From positions 1 to 64,000 of the IMG/VR virus record IMGVR_UViG_3300042340_000194: a stretch of 64,000 nt of DNA. The stretch is one strand, 5' to 3'. A program made the position numbers and the translations under genes. This DNA is from a virus. The notes below the pieces were generated by a model. It did not search any database and was not told where the DNA came from. It saw nothing but the letters and a program-made list of their open reading frames with translations. This document shows, piece after piece, positions 34,201 to 53,629 of this stretch; the first letter of the stretch is position 1, and each line of letters starts with the position of its first letter.

Positions 34201-37200
34201 TTAGTTAGAGGAAGTGGCGGGCTCGGGGGGAACTGTCTTAGCTCCGGTGGCATTCTGCTGTACTTCAGCTCGCAGGGATTTACTACTACGCTTTACCTTG
34301 TTAGGATCGTAACCTCCGTACCATACATCAATCATACGATCTTCAATTTCTGAGCGTAGTTGAAGTAGTGCTTGCTGCTTATTTGTGCTAAGAGCTTTGA
34401 TATACCGACTTTTAACATCTCTACTTTTATTACCAAATAAAACTTGTAGATCACCCTCTATTGGTTTATCGCTGGCTATACGCCATACCATTTCATTAGT
34501 CAACTCCTTTGAGCGGGCACGGTCCACTGTTAAATAACTGTGTGCCTCTTTCTGTAACTGCTTATCTAATAAATAACTATCACCAGCCTTAAAGTATTTT
34601 CTCCAGTTAGCCCCAAACTCTGGGTTATTAGGATCAATTTTTTCGCTAAGTCCATGAGGAATATTATTATTCTGTAACATGCGCACCGGACTGCTAGCGA
34701 ACGCACGTTTACCCATAGTTGCGTAAAACACATCTCCTTTGCTGACCCATGTTCGCATATTCTCATCTGTATGATTAAACACCCCGAAAGTGGGGCCTGC
34801 TACATTAACAACTTTGACATCTCTATAACCCATTTCGGCTAGAATAGCTAATGTTTCCGACGCCACATTTCCCCCATTGCTGTAGGCTAGCATGTGGACA
34901 GGCTTGCCGGTTAACCGCCGTTGTGCTGCGACAAAAGCTGCTGCACGTACTGCATCAGGATTAAACCCACGAGTTTCTATATTACCTCGCAAATAATCCA
35001 TCTGCTTAAACGCATTCTTCATCTCTATACCCATAGTAACCGGCTTCTGAGCTACTTTAGGGAGCATACCTATGCGGGCTTTCCGCGTCTTCATGTCTAG
35101 ATCGTCGGCACCTTGCTTAATAGGTTGGGAGATTTTGTTAGCAAAAGGGAGTATATCATGCTCGCCCCAGATCTCCCGAAAAGCTCCACCTTCAGCCATC
35201 AAATGACTACCTTGACCACGCTTAGTAAAAGTACCATCGTCTGCATAAGAAAGCATGACCACTGCGCCTTTGCTATTCTGTGTTTGCCCGTAAAATGCTG
35301 GGGTATTGTCCATACCACTAAACCCAGTATCATATCCTTTATCTTTGAAGTTGTAAGTAGATGCTTCAAACGGAGTAACGTCTTTGACATCCTTACCTAA
35401 ACGCTTCGCCGCTTTTTCGTTAAACTCGCGCACCATATCCTTAGCCATAGCCTCGGCGTCTATAGCAGATCTGGACACATTTCTCCTATAGGCGAATACC
35501 TGCTGAGATTTCACCCCGAGTGCGAGCCCTACGGCTGTGGCAGCCACTGCTCCAGCACCGATAGCCACATTACGGAGAGTATTGTCCTTATCTTTTGGGA
35601 TTGCTGCAGATTGCCCACCTCCGCCAGAAGCGGCTTGAGCGGCCAATGTTTTCTTAGAGCAGTTCCTATTATCAGGAATACCGGATTTACCGCAGCGCTT
35701 GTCCTGCCTAATAGTCGCAGCGAAAGCCTGGAAATAAGCATCACCGCGCTCGGGGGGCTTTCTTGCTTCCATGCGGCGGCGCTGGATTACTACGCGGGCA
35801 GCCGCCTCCGCTGACTTCTGGTTTTTATATAAAGGCTTGCCATTAGGCAATGTCCTATCCATTAGGGCTTTAAGCACGTCTAGATAAGACTGCTGCTCCT
35901 CTACATTAGTAAATTTGAAACTCTCCCTAGCCCGTCGAGGACGGTTCATCGGAGGTATCGGCGGAATAGCTCTACCGGTACGTGTGTTTAGCTCATTAGG
36001 GGGTCTTATTTGAAGCCCTTCGAATGCACCGGTCCCCCTGAGTATTGTCAAAGCTTCGGAAGGGTCTTTGATCGGCCTACCTGCGTGCTCTGAGGCAGCC
36101 TTTTGGATAGTCAGGCTCGGGGCAGACCATATCGTATTGACACTGGCGGGAAAGCCATTAGTTTGGAAATAATGCTGGTTAACTAGATCCGCAGAGTATG
36201 GGCCTTTAACCGCCTGCCTACCTGCTGTAGGGTAGAGCCGCGTAGCAAAGAACTCCGCATGCCCCTGCATCGCGTTCTGCATTACTGGGTATTGGTCTAG
36301 AGGTACGGATTTCCTTAAGCCTGTTGGCCCATAGACTTTAGGTAAAGAGTTAATAATAGACTCGTAGAAAGTATCATAGCTTGAGATTGTCTTACCATAG
36401 ATAGTTCTTGCTGTGCCAATTGCTCGGAAATTGGGGTGCAGCGTACCTAGGAGCTGGCTACGGGCTTGTTCTCTGGCTGCTGGGGTTAGCTGTTGAGCAT
36501 CGAGCAGCGTGTTAGCTAAGCTATGGCGATCTTCTAATTTACCTAGGTTAAAGCCCCGGTCTTTCGCGTAATTAGTCAACGTTTTATGCTCAGCATCCAA
36601 TTGATCTGCGATCTGCTGCACCAGCTTCACGCCTGACACTTCAGCCCCGCCAGTCACCTTGTAATGAGTTCTGAGGAAATCCTCCCCCGAGAGCGTCGCG
36701 AATTGATAACCGTCACCGACTCTATAGATTTGCTGCTCTTTCAAGCGTGGCGTGCTCCACATCGCTTTGTATGAGGCTTTATGCCACTCACCAAAGTCTG
36801 TGTAGGCGCTAGGACTTACATTTTTAACCCGCTGGCCGACAGCCGAAAATGGGGAATAGTCTAAAGGACTGGTTTTAAGAATATCAGAAGTATCGGGTAA
36901 TCCGTAGTTTCTACCAGCTACTGCTCCTACGCCATTGCGACGGCGCACTAATTCAGCGACAGCATTACGAGCTTCAGTTTTGGTACGCGCACGCGCCGGA
37001 TGTAGATCTAGCACCGAATGCAGTGCATTACTTACACTGTCATCAATGTTTTTACCAATACCTTCCCTGTAGCTGCGGATATTGCTTAAGATGCCGTGGG
37101 CACGAACTCCTCCCCCGAGTACGGCAAGAGCTACACCGATGCCTATAGACCCTTGAACTAGAGCAGCTTGTAGTTCTTTTTTCTTCTTAAGATCTTGAGG

Positions 37201-37515
37201 GGATGCTTTAACAGCACCGCGAATGACGGCTTTTCTACCGCCTTCTAATTCTGAGAAGTTACCAGTAGTTATGCCTTTTCTAAGGCGACCGAGCCCTCTT
37301 TGTGTGCTGGCGAGTGCAGCTAATGGATCACTACCTCTTCCCGCAGCTTTTAAATGTCCATCACCGCCTTCCCCCTTTAGCCGGCAATCCCATTCAGGAG
37401 GAATGCAGCGAGATCCACAACGCCGATTAGGCGGCTTACACGCAATGGTGTTTCGAGTCTTAGCGTCGATCCTCGATTGAGTAATCAGGAAAGTAGCCGT
37501 ACGAATGTTGGTCAT
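34201..37515 (-). CDS. two-module virion-type protein with lipase-like domain
   Basis: This 1104-residue protein contains two successive cassettes. Module one starts with a Cys motif (ACKPPNRRCGSRCIPPEWDC, about 26-45), then a hydrophobic stretch (about 117-140) and an unrecognised domain to about 590. Module two starts with IRQDKRCGKSGIPDNRNC (C608 and C619), a hydrophobic segment (about 645-668), then a lipase-like alpha/beta-hydrolase. Its nucleophile elbow is LAYSNGGNVAS (Ser-Asn-Gly-Gly, around residue 885), with a possible catalytic Asp in SKGD and a His downstream. The gene lies directly after the portal, where head-morphogenesis proteins usually sit, but I cannot recognise a MuF domain. 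It starts at ATG 37515, overlapping the portal stop. Confidence 0.72.
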   Translation of the reverse strand: MTNIRTATFLITQSRIDAKTRNTIACKPPNRRCGSRCIPPEWDCRLKGEGGDGHLKAAGRGSDPLAALASTQRGLGRLRKGITTGNFSELEGGRKAVIRGAVKASPQDLKKKKELQAALVQGSIGIGVALAVLGGGVRAHGILSNIRSYREGIGKNIDDSVSNALHSVLDLHPARARTKTEARNAVAELVRRRNGVGAVAGRNYGLPDTSDILKTSPLDYSPFSAVGQRVKNVSPSAYTDFGEWHKASYKAMWSTPRLKEQQIYRVGDGYQFATLSGEDFLRTHYKVTGGAEVSGVKLVQQIADQLDAEHKTLTNYAKDRGFNLGKLEDRHSLANTLLDAQQLTPAAREQARSQLLGTLHPNFRAIGTARTIYGKTISSYDTFYESIINSLPKVYGPTGLRKSVPLDQYPVMQNAMQGHAEFFATRLYPTAGRQAVKGPYSADLVNQHYFQTNGFPASVNTIWSAPSLTIQKAASEHAGRPIKDPSEALTILRGTGAFEGLQIRPPNELNTRTGRAIPPIPPMNRPRRARESFKFTNVEEQQSYLDVLKALMDRTLPNGKPLYKNQKSAEAAARVVIQRRRMEARKPPERGDAYFQAFAATIRQDKRCGKSGIPDNRNCSKKTLAAQAASGGGGQSAAIPKDKDNTLRNVAIGAGAVAATAVGLALGVKSQQVFAYRRNVSRSAIDAEAMAKDMVREFNEKAAKRLGKDVKDVTPFEASTYNFKDKGYDTGFSGMDNTPAFYGQTQNSKGAVVMLSYADDGTFTKRGQGSHLMAEGGAFREIWGEHDILPFANKISQPIKQGADDLDMKTRKARIGMLPKVAQKPVTMGIEMKNAFKQMDYLRGNIETRGFNPDAVRAAAFVAAQRRLTGKPVHMLAYSNGGNVASETLAILAEMGYRDVKVVNVAGPTFGVFNHTDENMRTWVSKGDVFYATMGKRAFASSPVRMLQNNNIPHGLSEKIDPNNPEFGANWRKYFKAGDSYLLDKQLQKEAHSYLTVDRARSKELTNEMVWRIASDKPIEGDLQVLFGNKSRDVKSRYIKALSTNKQQALLQLRSEIEDRMIDVWYGGYDPNKVKRSSKSLRAEVQQNATGAKTVPPEPATSSN

Positions 37516-49320: not shown

Positions 49321-49530
49321 TCAGGAGGTTAATTCGGAACTACGGGCGGCGGATCGAGCGAAACGCCTATAGTTTATTTTGTGGTCGATGTCAAGACTTT
49401 TATTTGTGGCTTGTAATATGTAGCGTGAACGGTTGATTAACGATTGTACTCTGTGTGGGTCTTTATCTGGTTGTTCTAAAGTGTTGCATAGCTCAGTGCA
49501 GAGATCAGAAAGAGTTTTGATACTGGTCAT
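49321..49530 (-). CDS. small hypothetical protein
   Basis: This 69-residue helical protein (LSDLCTELCNTLEQPDKD, then RVQSLINRSRYILQATN) starts at ATG 49530, overlapping the ThyX stop by four bases. No family is recognised. Coupling to ThyX supports expression. Confidence 0.6.
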   Translation of the reverse strand: MTSIKTLSDLCTELCNTLEQPDKDPHRVQSLINRSRYILQATNKSLDIDHKINYRRFARSAARSSELTS

Positions 49531-50291
49531 GGTGCCAGCCTCGCCTTACCCCAACGTTTTTCTTTGTAGTAAGCAGCGATAGCTGGCGTCCATTTTTCAA
49601 ACTCAACCATCATCAGCTCGCAGAGGGCTTGGATCTCTAGCTGTGCGTCGAGCTTCGTTCGTAGATCGAGGAAGTGCATAAGCGAACGGATGTTGAAGCT
49701 AACTACGAAATTCTGGCGATACTCAAAGGCTAATACTCCTCGGGCGTGTTCTTCGGCTACGCCTTGATGGACTAGATCTGAATAGCGCTTAGCAGTTTCA
49801 TTCATAAGATACATGTCGTTGTCACGGTCTTCTTTGGAATACTTGTAATAGCTTCCATTTCGTCCATGATAGAGCCCCACAGGGCGTTGAAAAAATATGT
49901 CATTGAACTTAAGCATGCTATTTATATGTCTAACATAATCCACAATCCTTGATCCTGTGTAACGCATCGACTGAACATCGAAAGAAATCCCGACCCGATG
50001 TGTACGGGCCTGTTGCATTACCGAATGAGGGAATCCTGCTACACCGAAGACAATGACGTTGTGCTCTAACGGGCCGTAATGGCCTCGTTCACCGGAGAGG
50101 AGGCGTTTAACGAGGATTAGGCCGGCATCGTGCTCGGGGGGCGGTGTCTCATCCCCCACGAAGCCTTCGGAGTAGTCCTGGTGCATGCCGAACCAAGAGG
50201 CTTGGCTGGGATTGTGGAGGGCAGTGAGGGTTTTGACGCGGAGCCGGGGGTCGCTTTGGATGATGTCCGAGGCGGTGATGGTGAGAGACAT
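49527..50291 (-). CDS. thyX: flavin-dependent thymidylate synthase
   Basis: ATG 50291 (MSLTITASD) gives 254 residues. It makes dTMP from dUMP using FAD and methylene-tetrahydrofolate. The ThyX motif RTHRVGISFDVQSMR lies at about residues 95-109, close to the RHRxxSxNxxSxR family motif in the form common in cyanobacteria and their phages. The C-terminal part has NFVVSFNIRSLMHFLDLR, including the conserved N-x-RS-x2-HFL-x-LR. It works with Dcd, which supplies dUTP/dUMP. Confidence 0.95.
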   Translation of the reverse strand: MSLTITASDIIQSDPRLRVKTLTALHNPSQASWFGMHQDYSEGFVGDETPPPEHDAGLILVKRLLSGERGHYGPLEHNVIVFGVAGFPHSVMQQARTHRVGISFDVQSMRYTGSRIVDYVRHINSMLKFNDIFFQRPVGLYHGRNGSYYKYSKEDRDNDMYLMNETAKRYSDLVHQGVAEEHARGVLAFEYRQNFVVSFNIRSLMHFLDLRTKLDAQLEIQALCELMMVEFEKWTPAIAAYYKEKRWGKARLAP

Positions 50292-50296
50292 GGGGA

Positions 50297-50716
50297 TCAA
50301 GAATTAAATGGTTGAGATGGGGATTGAGCTAAATCATAATCATCGACTAACTTTTTAGCAGCGCGGATCTTTCGGACTAACGTCTTCTGCTCACGCTTAG
50401 TCATCGAAGTGATATGCCAGTGATCACAGCATTGACATAGGTAGCTAGAGCCGGCGTGGCCGGTGTGTCGGAGAAAGGTAGAGATCTCGCGGCGGCTGTT
50501 GTAAGCCGCTTTGCAGCGGCATGCACCCTCTAATCTCTGGAGAAAGTTTCGGGCTTCTGCGAGTTCACAGAAGAAGTTGGGGGATTCTCCAGAAACTCCG
50601 CTGAGGATGTTTGGATTAGCCGGTGCAGCCGCTGGCGGGGCCTGTCCATGCTGGGGACTCCTGTTTTTTCTGGAGGCGGCGGGGCGCCGATGGGATAGGT
50701 GGGTAAACTTCGCCAT
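50297..50716 (-). CDS. small zinc-finger protein
   Basis: ATG 50716 (MAKFTHLSHRR) gives 139 residues. After a Pro/Ala-rich start it has EGACRCKAAYNSRREIST (about 77-94) and SSYLCQCCDHWHITSM (about 103-118). This matches a recurring phage zinc module, C-x-C-K-x-Y-x-S-R followed by Y-x-C-x2-C-x2-WH-x-TS. A basic helix follows. It overlaps the next gene upstream by 187 bases in a different frame. Confidence 0.65.
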   Translation of the reverse strand: MAKFTHLSHRRPAASRKNRSPQHGQAPPAAAPANPNILSGVSGESPNFFCELAEARNFLQRLEGACRCKAAYNSRREISTFLRHTGHAGSSYLCQCCDHWHITSMTKREQKTLVRKIRAAKKLVDDYDLAQSPSQPFNS

Positions 50717-50811: not shown

Positions 50812-51014
50812 CAGTCTCCACCTTCGGTGAGATAGCTAGTGGCGGAGGAATCCGCGAACCGCCGGGGGCGGGGGGCCTCACCGGAGGAGATGCTCTGGGC
50901 TCGGTCGATAGCAGCGGAGGTCTCGCTCAAGACGCTCACCAGGGGGCTGGCGACGGGAGCGAGTTCCTGGAGCAGGGCTGCGGCGGCGGCGAAGAACGGG
51001 AGGGGTTTAGACAT
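50811..51014 (-). CDS. small hypothetical protein
   Basis: ATG 51014 (MSKPLPFFAAAAALL) gives 67 residues. The N-terminal 30 residues are Ala/Leu/Val-rich, possibly a membrane anchor or signal-like helix; the rest is polar. It overlaps the HTH gene by eight bases and is coupled to the membrane protein gene downstream. Confidence 0.5.
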   Translation of the reverse strand: MSKPLPFFAAAAALLQELAPVASPLVSVLSETSAAIDRAQSISSGEAPRPRRFADSSATSYLTEGGD

Positions 51015-51390
51015 GGGGAAGTTCGTCGAGGGGTTCAATAAGGTTGCTGCTAAGCAACGAGGCGCGGTAGCGATTAACCGCCGCGTGGAGGATGTAGGCG
51101 GGCTGGATGTGAAGCAGCTTCGCCAGGTCTCGTATGAACTCGTCGTTCTCGGGGGAGAGTGACGTGTTGAATCGCTGAGTCAGCTTGGTCGATGTTGGTC
51201 GGTAGCTGTCTGCTCGCTCCTGGCTGATGGCTCCTTGTGCGACGGCTGTGGTGAGCCGTTGGTGTACGGCCTGGCGGCTGATGTCTAACCTCCTCCCGAC
51301 TTCTGCGTAATTGCAGACACCGTATTTGGTTAGAACCTCTTCGCAGGTATCAAGGATTGATTGAAGAGAAGTCTTCGAGACGTAAGTCAT
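51007..51390 (-). CDS. HTH plus ribbon-helix-helix-like DNA-binding protein
   Basis: This 127-residue protein has a helix-turn-helix in residues about 26-58 (NYAEVGRRLDISRQAVHQRL). A second part (about 68-115) fits a ribbon-helix-helix: LTQRFNTSLSPENDEFIRDL then a LLHIQPAYILHAAVNRYRAS helix. It is probably a transcriptional regulator of the early/accessory block. ATG 51390 lies inside the preceding gene. Confidence 0.68.
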   Translation of the reverse strand: MTYVSKTSLQSILDTCEEVLTKYGVCNYAEVGRRLDISRQAVHQRLTTAVAQGAISQERADSYRPTSTKLTQRFNTSLSPENDEFIRDLAKLLHIQPAYILHAAVNRYRASLLSSNLIEPLDELPHV

Positions 51391-51571
51391 CTGGACGGTG
51401 AAGCGAGGGGATGCTGAAGTCCCCTGGCGGGAAGAAGCGATACGGTTGGTCGCAGTTTTTTAAGTTTTGATTGGCTTGCTGGATCTCCTCCTCGGTGGCT
51501 GTTGTTTGGTAGAGGATTACTCCGGTTTCCAGGTGGTGCATGGCGTAGACCGCGTGGATATTGGAAGACAT
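51350..51571 (-). CDS. small hypothetical protein
   Basis: This 73-residue alpha/beta protein (AVYAMHHLETGVILYQTTAT, then EEEIQQANQNLKNCDQPYRF) starts at ATG 51571. It overlaps the HTH gene by 41 bases. A competing frame at 51387-51698 is low-complexity and less likely. The 135 bases upstream (51572-51706) hold nothing else I can support. Confidence 0.55.
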   Translation of the reverse strand: MSSNIHAVYAMHHLETGVILYQTTATEEEIQQANQNLKNCDQPYRFFPPGDFSIPSLHRPDDLRLEDFSSINP

Positions 51572-51706: not shown

Positions 51707-52123
51707 CTAGGCGGGAAGGTGGTGGGCCAGGCCACGTTGGAGGGTCCTGAGTTTGTCTTGAGATATTGTTGCTGAGTTGTTGAGGCTAATCGCGTCATTA
51801 CTGTCGATCATCTCCTGTAATAGCTTGTGCATCTGCGATGGTGTGGGGTGTATGTTGTGGATATTGTCGGCAATATTGCTGAGCTGATTCCATGCTCGAA
51901 ACTGCTCCCCAGATACTGCTCCAGGATAAGATTGCCTCATTGCTTCACGGAGGGCAGCACTGAAGAAGCGGCGGATTACTTGCACTTCTAAAGTAGTTAT
52001 GCCATCTAAATCTAATAGGCAATTTCCAAGCATATCACTACTGAGTACGGCTTTAGATTGCTCTGTTAACGGAGGGAACTCTTCGTAGGGGTTCACGGAT
52101 TTGACTGGAATAGTTGATGGCAT
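51707..52123 (-). CDS. hypothetical protein, paralogue of the 48254-48691 gene
   Basis: This 138-residue protein shares a central pattern with the 145-residue protein at 48254: a PPLTEQS segment, SAALREAMRQSYP and IADNIHNIHPTPSQM. The two lie about 3 kb apart on the same strand and are likely an old duplication. Function is unknown. Confidence 0.65.
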   Translation of the reverse strand: MPSTIPVKSVNPYEEFPPLTEQSKAVLSSDMLGNCLLDLDGITTLEVQVIRRFFSAALREAMRQSYPGAVSGEQFRAWNQLSNIADNIHNIHPTPSQMHKLLQEMIDSNDAISLNNSATISQDKLRTLQRGLAHHLPA

Positions 52124-52129
52124 TGTAGA

Positions 52130-52291
52130 TCAGCAGAGGTTAATAAGAAGATAAAGCGTCATGAGCTGGCCTACCACAGCGGCGATAGAAAGGTCTAATG
52201 ACGGGGATTTGATGTTGTACCCCATCAACCCTCCGGTGAGAAAGCTGATGAGGAGGGTTAAGGCTATCTCGACTCCCTTTTGCATAGTCAT
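52130..52291 (-). CDS. small two-span membrane protein (53 residues)
   Basis: ATG 52291 overlaps the stop of the Acb2-like gene as ATGA. The protein has two hydrophobic spans: VEIALTLLISFLTGGLMGY (about 7-25) and LSIAAVVGQLMTLYLLINL (about 34-52). It ends six bases before the next start. Function is unknown. Coupling to an anti-defence gene makes it interesting as a possible partner. Confidence 0.62.
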   Translation of the reverse strand: MTMQKGVEIALTLLISFLTGGLMGYNIKSPSLDLSIAAVVGQLMTLYLLINLC

Positions 52292-52563
52292 GAGATCATC
52301 TGCTCCAGGGTGACTACATCAGGCTCGTTACGAGCTATCGCAGCATTTGCCCACATCATGGCTTCCTCAATCTTAGTTAAAGCGAGCGATTGCTCGCGGG
52401 AACGTGGGGTGAGATCGAGGACGAGCTGAGCTAGAGATTTAGCGTTTTCTCTGAGTAAGAAATACTTAGAGACTTGGTCAGGGCTGGGAGTGTGATAGCA
52501 GAAGATGTTGTTAATGTTGTAAGGGTGCGGAGAAGTGGCGGGATTGTCGTGAGTAGAGGCCAT
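52288..52563 (-). CDS. acb2: Acb2/Tad1-type anti-CBASS protein
   Basis: This 91-residue protein fits the Acb2/Tad1 hairpin family. Acb2 forms a hexamer that sequesters cyclic di- and trinucleotides and blocks CBASS; related Tad1 binds Thoeris signals. Residues about 20-80 carry the family pattern: CYHTPSPDQVSKYFLLRENA, then LAQLVLDLTPRSREQSLALT, and EEAMMWANAAIARN. The helix pair and the MWANA-x-IARN block are the strongest identifiers. The N-terminal 18 residues are Asn/Pro-rich. The call is from pattern memory; which signal it binds cannot be read from sequence. Confidence 0.82.
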   Translation of the reverse strand: MASTHDNPATSPHPYNINNIFCYHTPSPDQVSKYFLLRENAKSLAQLVLDLTPRSREQSLALTKIEEAMMWANAAIARNEPDVVTLEQMIS

Positions 52564-52612: not shown

Positions 52613-53629
52613 TCAGCAGACTTCGCTCCAGTCGATAGAAATCGCCGGGTGGAGTTCTCCGTCTACAAGCAGTTGCGCAAAGTCTTTGGCCGAGTGATCC
52701 AAGACCATTTCCTGGATAAACTCGGACAGCTTGCGGCGTTGCGCTTTGGTAGGGACGGTGGTAGGAGAGGGGGGCGTGGCTACGGGCTCGGGGGTACGGG
52801 CCCAGGGGGCACATCCTCTATTCACCACCAGGCTTACTTGTGGAACTACTTCAACCTTCGCTGCAGCGGCTGCCACCACTACTTCTTTCTCCTCTTCTGC
52901 TCTCGCGGCACGTTGCTCGGCGGCTTCGGTTTTCTTACGCTCCGCGTCCAGCGCGGTAGCGGCCTCTGCCTCCGCTTCTTCTTTAGCCTTGGCTGCGGCC
53001 TTATCAGCTATATCCTGCTCCCGTTTAACACGGGCAGCTTCTGCAGCATCCTTGCGCTCTTGTTCCCTTCGGGCCGCCGCTTCTTCAGTGTCCAAAGCGG
53101 CTTGGAGGGTTTGCTCCAACGCGGCGGTAGCAATGACTAGCTCCGCATCCGCCTTAGGGGTAAACTCTTCAAAGGTTTTATGGTCAATCCCCTTCAGGAT
53201 GTCTAGGTATTCCTGGATCTGTGCGGATCCAACTCCTACTGGAGCTTTCCCCATGTCGATGATGACCTGAATATTGTTTTCGTGCTCTGCTATACGAGCA
53301 TCTTCTTCATCTTTGATACTCTTGAGGATTGTTTCATGAGGCGTTATGAGCGATGTAACACGCGCTTCTAGTTTTTTAGAGAATGTGTTGACATCTTGAA
53401 TATATGTTTGAGCTGCTTCATTCTGCGCTTTGCGAGTCTTATCAACCGAAGCTCTTACTTTACGCAGCTTGGCTACATAACTACGCGCTCTCTTATTTAC
53501 ATCGGGATTTTTATAGTCACCAAAATCGGCTATTGCTTCTTTTTCCGCTATTTTAATGTCTGAAGTGACACGGTCAAACGGTGTAAATACTTCAGTATCC
53601 AGAATTGGGGCAGTGGTAGCGAGAGTCAT
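52613..53629 (-). CDS. coiled-coil protein (DUF1351-like)
   Basis: This 338-residue protein is mostly a long charged coiled coil: DVNKRARSYVAKLRKVRASV (about 44-63), then a KEEAEAEAATALDAERKKTE-type region (about 215-260). A Pro/Thr linker leads to a small C-terminal helical domain (SEFIQEMVLDHSAKDFAQLL). DUF1351-like proteins accompany phage recombination genes, but no exonuclease or RecT is visible beside it here. It may be a structural or recombination accessory. Confidence 0.62.
   Translation of the reverse strand: MTLATTAPILDTEVFTPFDRVTSDIKIAEKEAIADFGDYKNPDVNKRARSYVAKLRKVRASVDKTRKAQNEAAQTYIQDVNTFSKKLEARVTSLITPHETILKSIKDEEDARIAEHENNIQVIIDMGKAPVGVGSAQIQEYLDILKGIDHKTFEEFTPKADAELVIATAALEQTLQAALDTEEAAARREQERKDAAEAARVKREQDIADKAAAKAKEEAEAEAATALDAERKKTEAAEQRAARAEEEKEVVVAAAAAKVEVVPQVSLVVNRGCAPWARTPEPVATPPSPTTVPTKAQRRKLSEFIQEMVLDHSAKDFAQLLVDGELHPAISIDWSEVC

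Follow-up and report, generated by a model that had tools for sequence, protein, structure and literature searches.

A predicted Acb2-type nucleotide-signal sponge in a cyanophage-like genome and a Tad2-like gene in its place in related phages

The stretch of DNA analysed here (the window, 64,000 nucleotides) belongs to a viral record of 75,601 bases (IMGVR_UViG_3300042340_000194, hereafter G000). The genes at the locus of interest are listed in Table 1: an acb2-like gene and two further genes of a variable cassette, a region referred to below as the slot, are enclosed by conserved flanking genes. The acb2-like gene starts with ATG, stops with TGA and encodes the product MASTHDNP...MMWANAAIARNEPDVVTLEQMIS. 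Its stop codon and the start codon of the 53-aa gene overlap in the sequence ATGA, so the two are probably co-translated. Just downstream of the slot region lies a gene for a ThyX thymidylate synthase (window 49527-50300, minus strand; TIGR02170, E=8e-49). Further away, a 1104-aa ORF beside the portal gene (window 34201-37515, minus strand) is without a PHROG or Pfam match. Scans of the window for Rfam families and tRNAs found nothing, no PADLOC model matched the slot proteins and no NCBIfam model matched the 91-aa protein.

Table 1. Genes and features of the slot and its flanks, in window coordinates.
Feature	Position	Strand	Basis
338-aa Ala/Glu-rich protein, PHROG 1376, conserved upstream flank	52613..53629	-	56% identical to L183:14292-15278 (G008)
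acb2-like gene, PF24729 (Acb2/Tad1 hairpin) protein	52288..52563	-	91 aa; ORF, PF24729, PHROG 1454 and 9ptq matches
Hairpin domain, two long antiparallel helices (predicted)	52330..52497	-	Residues ~23-78; PF24729 match on genome and AlphaFold2 model
53-aa hydrophobic, probably membrane-spanning protein, variable cassette	52130..52291	-	ORF; weak PHROG 13641 match
138-aa protein, unknown function, variable cassette	51707..52123	-	ORF; no PHROG, no Pfam above cut-off
73-aa protein, conserved downstream flank	51350..51571	-	RFFP-GDF-IPSLH block common with L183:13230-13430 and L191:942-1142, read directly
127-aa helix-turn-helix protein, conserved downstream flank	51007..51390	-	55% identical to L183:12797-13204 (G008); HTH families just under cut-offs

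A sequence-only reading of this DNA had assigned the 91-aa protein to the Acb2/Tad1 family on account of a helix-hairpin pattern and a MWANAAIARN block. Profile comparison bears this out. In a Pfam profile search the protein matched PF24729 (E=2.1e-19) over profile positions 2-58 of 58, and thus over practically the whole profile, scoring 69.9 bits where the curated cut-off is 27 bits. The MWANAAIARN block is present at residues 70-79, and only ~22 residues precede the domain. The protein is also matched by three PHROGs without a known function, 1454 (E=1.3e-23), 15810 and 31113. The nearest solved structure by sequence is 9ptq, named 'Acb2 homolog 43' (phmmer, E=4e-4), which a 13-sequence profile reached among PDB sequences with E=6.7e-10. 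The profile reached Tad1 chains as well (E ~0.0005-0.002, compared with E=0.11 for the single sequence), and matched T4 Vs.4 weakly (E=0.6-0.9).

Homologues are numerous: they occur in 313 phage records, IMG/VR yields 550 confirmed relatives, and a search of 84,980 species genomes gives 54 loci, mainly in Paenibacillus, other bacilli and actinobacteria; none of these 54 loci came from a genome titled as a cyanobacterium. Ten residues (H24, R38, A45, P53, R56, E57, A68, A72, N73 and A74) never vary across 67 viral relatives. The number of homologues and the invariant residues together argue that the match is not due to chance. PF24729-type proteins from phages of other hosts (Paenibacillus, Brevibacillus, Mycobacterium, Gordonia and Microbacterium) reach up to 62% domain identity to the window protein and are mostly labelled hypothetical or phosphomannomutase. 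The latter label, found on many Paenibacillus and Brevibacillus phage genes (e.g. KT151955.1 78971-79177; L012:1495-1701), is evidently a misannotation that has propagated. One phage homologue is annotated as a 'cyclic nucleotide inhibitor', and Statler gp57 has been announced as a putative Acb2 (PMC13348362). Three divergent relatives of ~119 aa (L007:2731-3090, L008:2833-3192, L009:116-475) carry an N-terminal extension ahead of a AITKIEEAMMWLEERTKTR block and are possibly Tad1-type proteins. Gordonia phage Remus has its acb2-like gene directly beside one for ThyX.

An AlphaFold2 model built with the 67 viral relatives had a mean pLDDT of 85.5, rising to ~98-99 over most of the hairpin. Helices were predicted at residues 17-20, 28-51 and 56-79, with low confidence at 83-90, and the model contains no beta-strands. 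The predicted fold is thus the helical hairpin described from the sequence, formed by helices 28-51 and 56-79. When the model was searched against 350,542 PDB chains with Foldseek, the top hit was Vs.4 (T4 Acb2) with cGAMP (probability 0.90, TM 0.53, E=0.88), and the first eleven hits included Tad1 and Acb2 (8h2x, 8h2j). Every E-value was non-significant and, because a helical hairpin makes a poor query, this ranking is taken as corroboration only.

Alignment of T4 Vs.4 to the family profile paired Y8 with Y23, T68 with T63 and F82 with A77. The N-terminal part of this alignment is weak and the pairing of Y8 with Y23 depends on an ungapped reading. Among the 67 viral relatives, position 23 is Tyr in 63, position 63 is Thr in 66 and position 77 is Ala in 66. 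The effects of the T4 residues are drawn from two papers on Panoptes (PMC12657218, PMC12657230): Y8A abolishes activity (PMC12657218, PMC12657230), T68M reduces binding (PMC12657230) and F82 makes a stacking contact with the base (PMC12657218). On this alignment, the branch to which the window protein belongs retains the T4 Acb2 pocket in part, with a change at one stacking position. Since the equivalent of F82 is A77, its cyclic-dinucleotide specificity or affinity may differ from that of T4 Acb2.

The genome had also been called cyanophage-like from its sequence, a description that is well supported by similarity of marker proteins. The best relatives of all four markers in the phage collection are phages of cyanobacteria: TerL has its nearest relatives in Cylindrospermopsis and Nodularia phages (27-30% identity) and the DNA polymerase in Pseudanabaena phages (28-29%); for the portal the nearest is Synechococcus phage S-CBS4 (35%), followed by Aphanizomenon phage CL131 (27%), and for the DUF7227 protein it is Synechococcus phage S-SRP01 (39.5%). 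By the same similarities, the host is probably a cyanobacterium. No close DNA relative was found among named phages for the region 26.0-50.5 kb. Outside the window, a phage sigma-70 factor (L010:5020-5916, minus strand; record ~67.0-67.9 kb) had cyanoRpoD as its best model, below the cut-off. A relative of this virus, G001, runs nearly unbroken across the ends of the record (position 75601 of G000 beside position 1), and the genome is therefore probably circular or circularly permuted.

Related contigs were found through the portal protein. In one of these (G008, IMGVR_UViG_3300027746_000020), whose portal is 67% identical to that of the window, the place of the acb2-like gene is taken by a 92-aa Tad2-like ORF (L183:14017-14295, minus strand; PF11195, E=5e-25, 88.3 bits against a cut-off of 25 bits). 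G009, with a similarly related portal, also has a PF11195 Tad2-like gene above the cut-off in the slot, as does G004, a distinct contig with a portal 71% identical to the window's and the same gene order. Two related lineages within one phage group thus show the replacement. PF11195 was not detected in G000, nor was PF24729 in the fragmentary contigs G004 and G009 or in G008, which may not be complete. No similarity was found between the window acb2-like protein and the Tad2-like protein of G008. The latter carries a C-terminal tandem duplication (LLANDWCLFDDLLANDWCLF), which its homologue in G004 lacks.

The remaining cassette genes of the slot also differ between these phages. The 138-aa and 53-aa proteins of the window and the 101-aa and 56-aa proteins of G008 are not recognisably shared, and the 53-aa and 56-aa proteins show no clear similarity to each other. 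Near-identical phages (96-100% portal identity) have contigs that stop short of the slot: G001 is without the region at ~44.3-55.8 kb of the window, G002 ends at ~50.0 kb and G007 spans 8.1-46.8 kb. As these contigs do not cover the slot, a missing acb2 match in them says nothing, and a presence/absence comparison with near-identical phages was set aside as uninformative. A search of viral contigs with the flanking genes returned only contigs already known.

The two families also meet elsewhere. A tad2-like gene is present in 3 of 142 acb2-like loci (two in Paenibacillus bouchesdurhonensis, one in Mycolicibacterium sphagni), each time directly upstream and on the same strand. Conversely, 5 of 80 tad2-like viral loci contain an acb2-like gene, directly adjacent in four and on the same strand in all five. 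The chance of four out of five being adjacent is ~5 in 10,000 if each has a probability of ~0.1 when placed at random within ~5 kb either side, a rough estimate in which the loci are not fully independent of one another and adjacent pairs supplied 3 of the 6 seed sequences. The acb2-like and tad2-like genes of mycobacteriophage MalagasyRose overlap by one base. Within the genus Anayavirus the two alternate, Marshawn having only an acb2-like gene and Curiosium only a tad2-like gene across their whole genomes, and in both the sponge gene belongs to a left-end module ahead of the terminase. No paper on this pairing was found, in a literature search that missed most of the relevant journals.

Less expected are the exchange of one sponge family for an unrelated one at a single locus and the recurrent adjacency of the two. 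It is an evenly balanced proposition that genes of PF24729 and PF11195, as a pair or as alternatives, recurrently make up a 'signal-sponge cassette' in phages of cyanobacteria, actinobacteria and bacilli, that is, one slot in which the sponge is exchanged, or both are stacked, to match the nucleotide signals of the host. Alternatively, the exchange could be a coincidence, with two common small phage genes lying by chance in a region that is variable overall. It is true that PF11195-like genes occur widely among phages, and the other occupants of the slot (the 138-aa, 101-aa and membrane proteins) vary too, as a variable region would predict. Coincidence nevertheless sits poorly with the direct adjacency of all three tad2-like genes found near the 142 acb2-like genes, with the four adjacent and uniformly same-strand genes near the 80 tad2-like ones, and with an alternation in the unrelated genus of Marshawn and Curiosium, and we consider it rather unlikely. 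If the cassette reading is true, the small uncharacterised neighbours in the slot become candidate counter-defence genes.

PF24729 covers binders of CBASS cyclic nucleotides and/or Thoeris signals. We consider the acb2-like protein to be a small Acb2-type nucleotide-signal sponge (probability roughly 0.85), with its ligand, oligomeric state and effect in vivo inferred from the family. Such a protein would be expressed during infection along with the neighbouring genes, and its hairpins would assemble into an oligomer, which is a hexamer in known Acb2. The oligomer would tightly bind the nucleotide alarm signal produced by the host after infection, without degrading it, so that the host effector would stay inactive and the cell would not abort the infection. 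A counter-defence role is supported by genomic evidence independent of the family match, namely the Tad2-like slot exchange and the pairing and alternation seen elsewhere. By analogy with known members, the ligands are most likely CBASS-type cyclic di- or trinucleotides and possibly a Thoeris-type signal; the likeliest specific role is anti-CBASS, and a Thoeris-type signal is its main rival.

According to that rival, the protein would absorb Thoeris-type cyclic ADP-ribose signals, as in the Tad1 branch, and not CBASS nucleotides. PF24729 includes Tad1, whose chains the acb2-like profile reaches at the E-values given above; the stretch SREQSLALTKIEEAMMW resembles Tad1's SRENACALTHVEEALMW, and the genomic alternate is Tad2-like, a family named for anti-Thoeris activity (PMC12043709). 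We judge this unlikely, since the 91-aa protein is without the N-terminal beta-sheet of Tad1, its model consists of helices only and the closest solved sequence is named an Acb2 homolog. Loss of signal binding in favour of another role (e.g. structural or regulatory) is very improbable: the PHROG family is of unknown function, the F82 equivalent is not conserved and most members are known from sequence alone, many Paenibacillus phage homologues even carrying the phosphomannomutase label, but the putative pocket residues hardly vary among the 67 viral relatives and the Tad2-like replacement or adjacency in several unrelated phages would be hard to explain otherwise.

In the sequence-only reading the family is right and the sponge role well supported, the latter on the grounds of the family and of the Tad2-like replacement in related phages. 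Its further prediction is CBASS or a related nucleotide-signal defence in the host lineage. For CBASS itself, this conclusion would require a CBASS signal as the ligand, and the signal could as well be a different cyclic nucleotide or a Thoeris-type ADP-ribose signal; a literature search with limited terms found nothing on CBASS or Thoeris in cyanobacterial genomes. The present data extend Acb2-type sponges to a little-described cyanophage-like virus group and predict nucleotide-signal immunity in the hosts of that group. Moreover, the slot exchange and the tad2-acb2 pairs provide an independent genomic argument that PF24729 and PF11195, both large and mostly unannotated, serve a common purpose. 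A direct comparison would be possible between related phages with different sponges, and the slot neighbours become counter-defence candidates. Because sponges trigger Panoptes (PMC12657218, PMC12657230), one might speculate that sponge swapping offers an escape route from Panoptes-like guards.

Among known systems, the window protein is closest in architecture to Acb2 (Pseudomonas phage gp24, T4 Vs.4), with which it has the PF24729-type hairpin in common. It is small and, in the model, all-helical, with a short N-terminal helix followed by two long antiparallel helices, and its predicted architecture is that of the short Acb2 type. Known Acb2 is a hexamer with distinct cyclic-dinucleotide and cyclic-trinucleotide sites. 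In length the window protein (91 aa) lies near Vs.4 (88 aa, from the alignment) and Pseudomonas phage gp24 (94 aa; PMC12043709). The equivalents of Y8 and T68 are kept, whereas sequence identity to Acb2 is low, the F82 equivalent is Ala and the phage group is another one. 'Acb2 homolog 43' (9ptq), for which the literature search found no describing paper, has the REKS/REQS--TK-EEAM block in common with the window protein but lacks the full MWANAAIAR motif, having EAMFFATKAAA instead.

Tad1 (e.g. 7uav/8smd) has a C-terminal hairpin of the same Pfam family and an SRE---ALT--EEA-MW block in common with the window protein. However, Tad1 carries an additional N-terminal antiparallel beta-sheet (beta1-beta4) ahead of the hairpin (PMC12043709). 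The model of the window protein is without strands and this part is therefore missing; as 91 aa also leave no room for the sheet, membership of Tad1 was rejected. Tad2 (PF11195) is likewise a phage sponge for nucleotide signals and is found at the same locus in G004, G008 and G009, but its sequence is unrelated to that of the window protein. Its assembly differs from that of an Acb2-type sponge and, despite its anti-Thoeris name, Tad2 binds cyclic dinucleotides too (PMC12043709).
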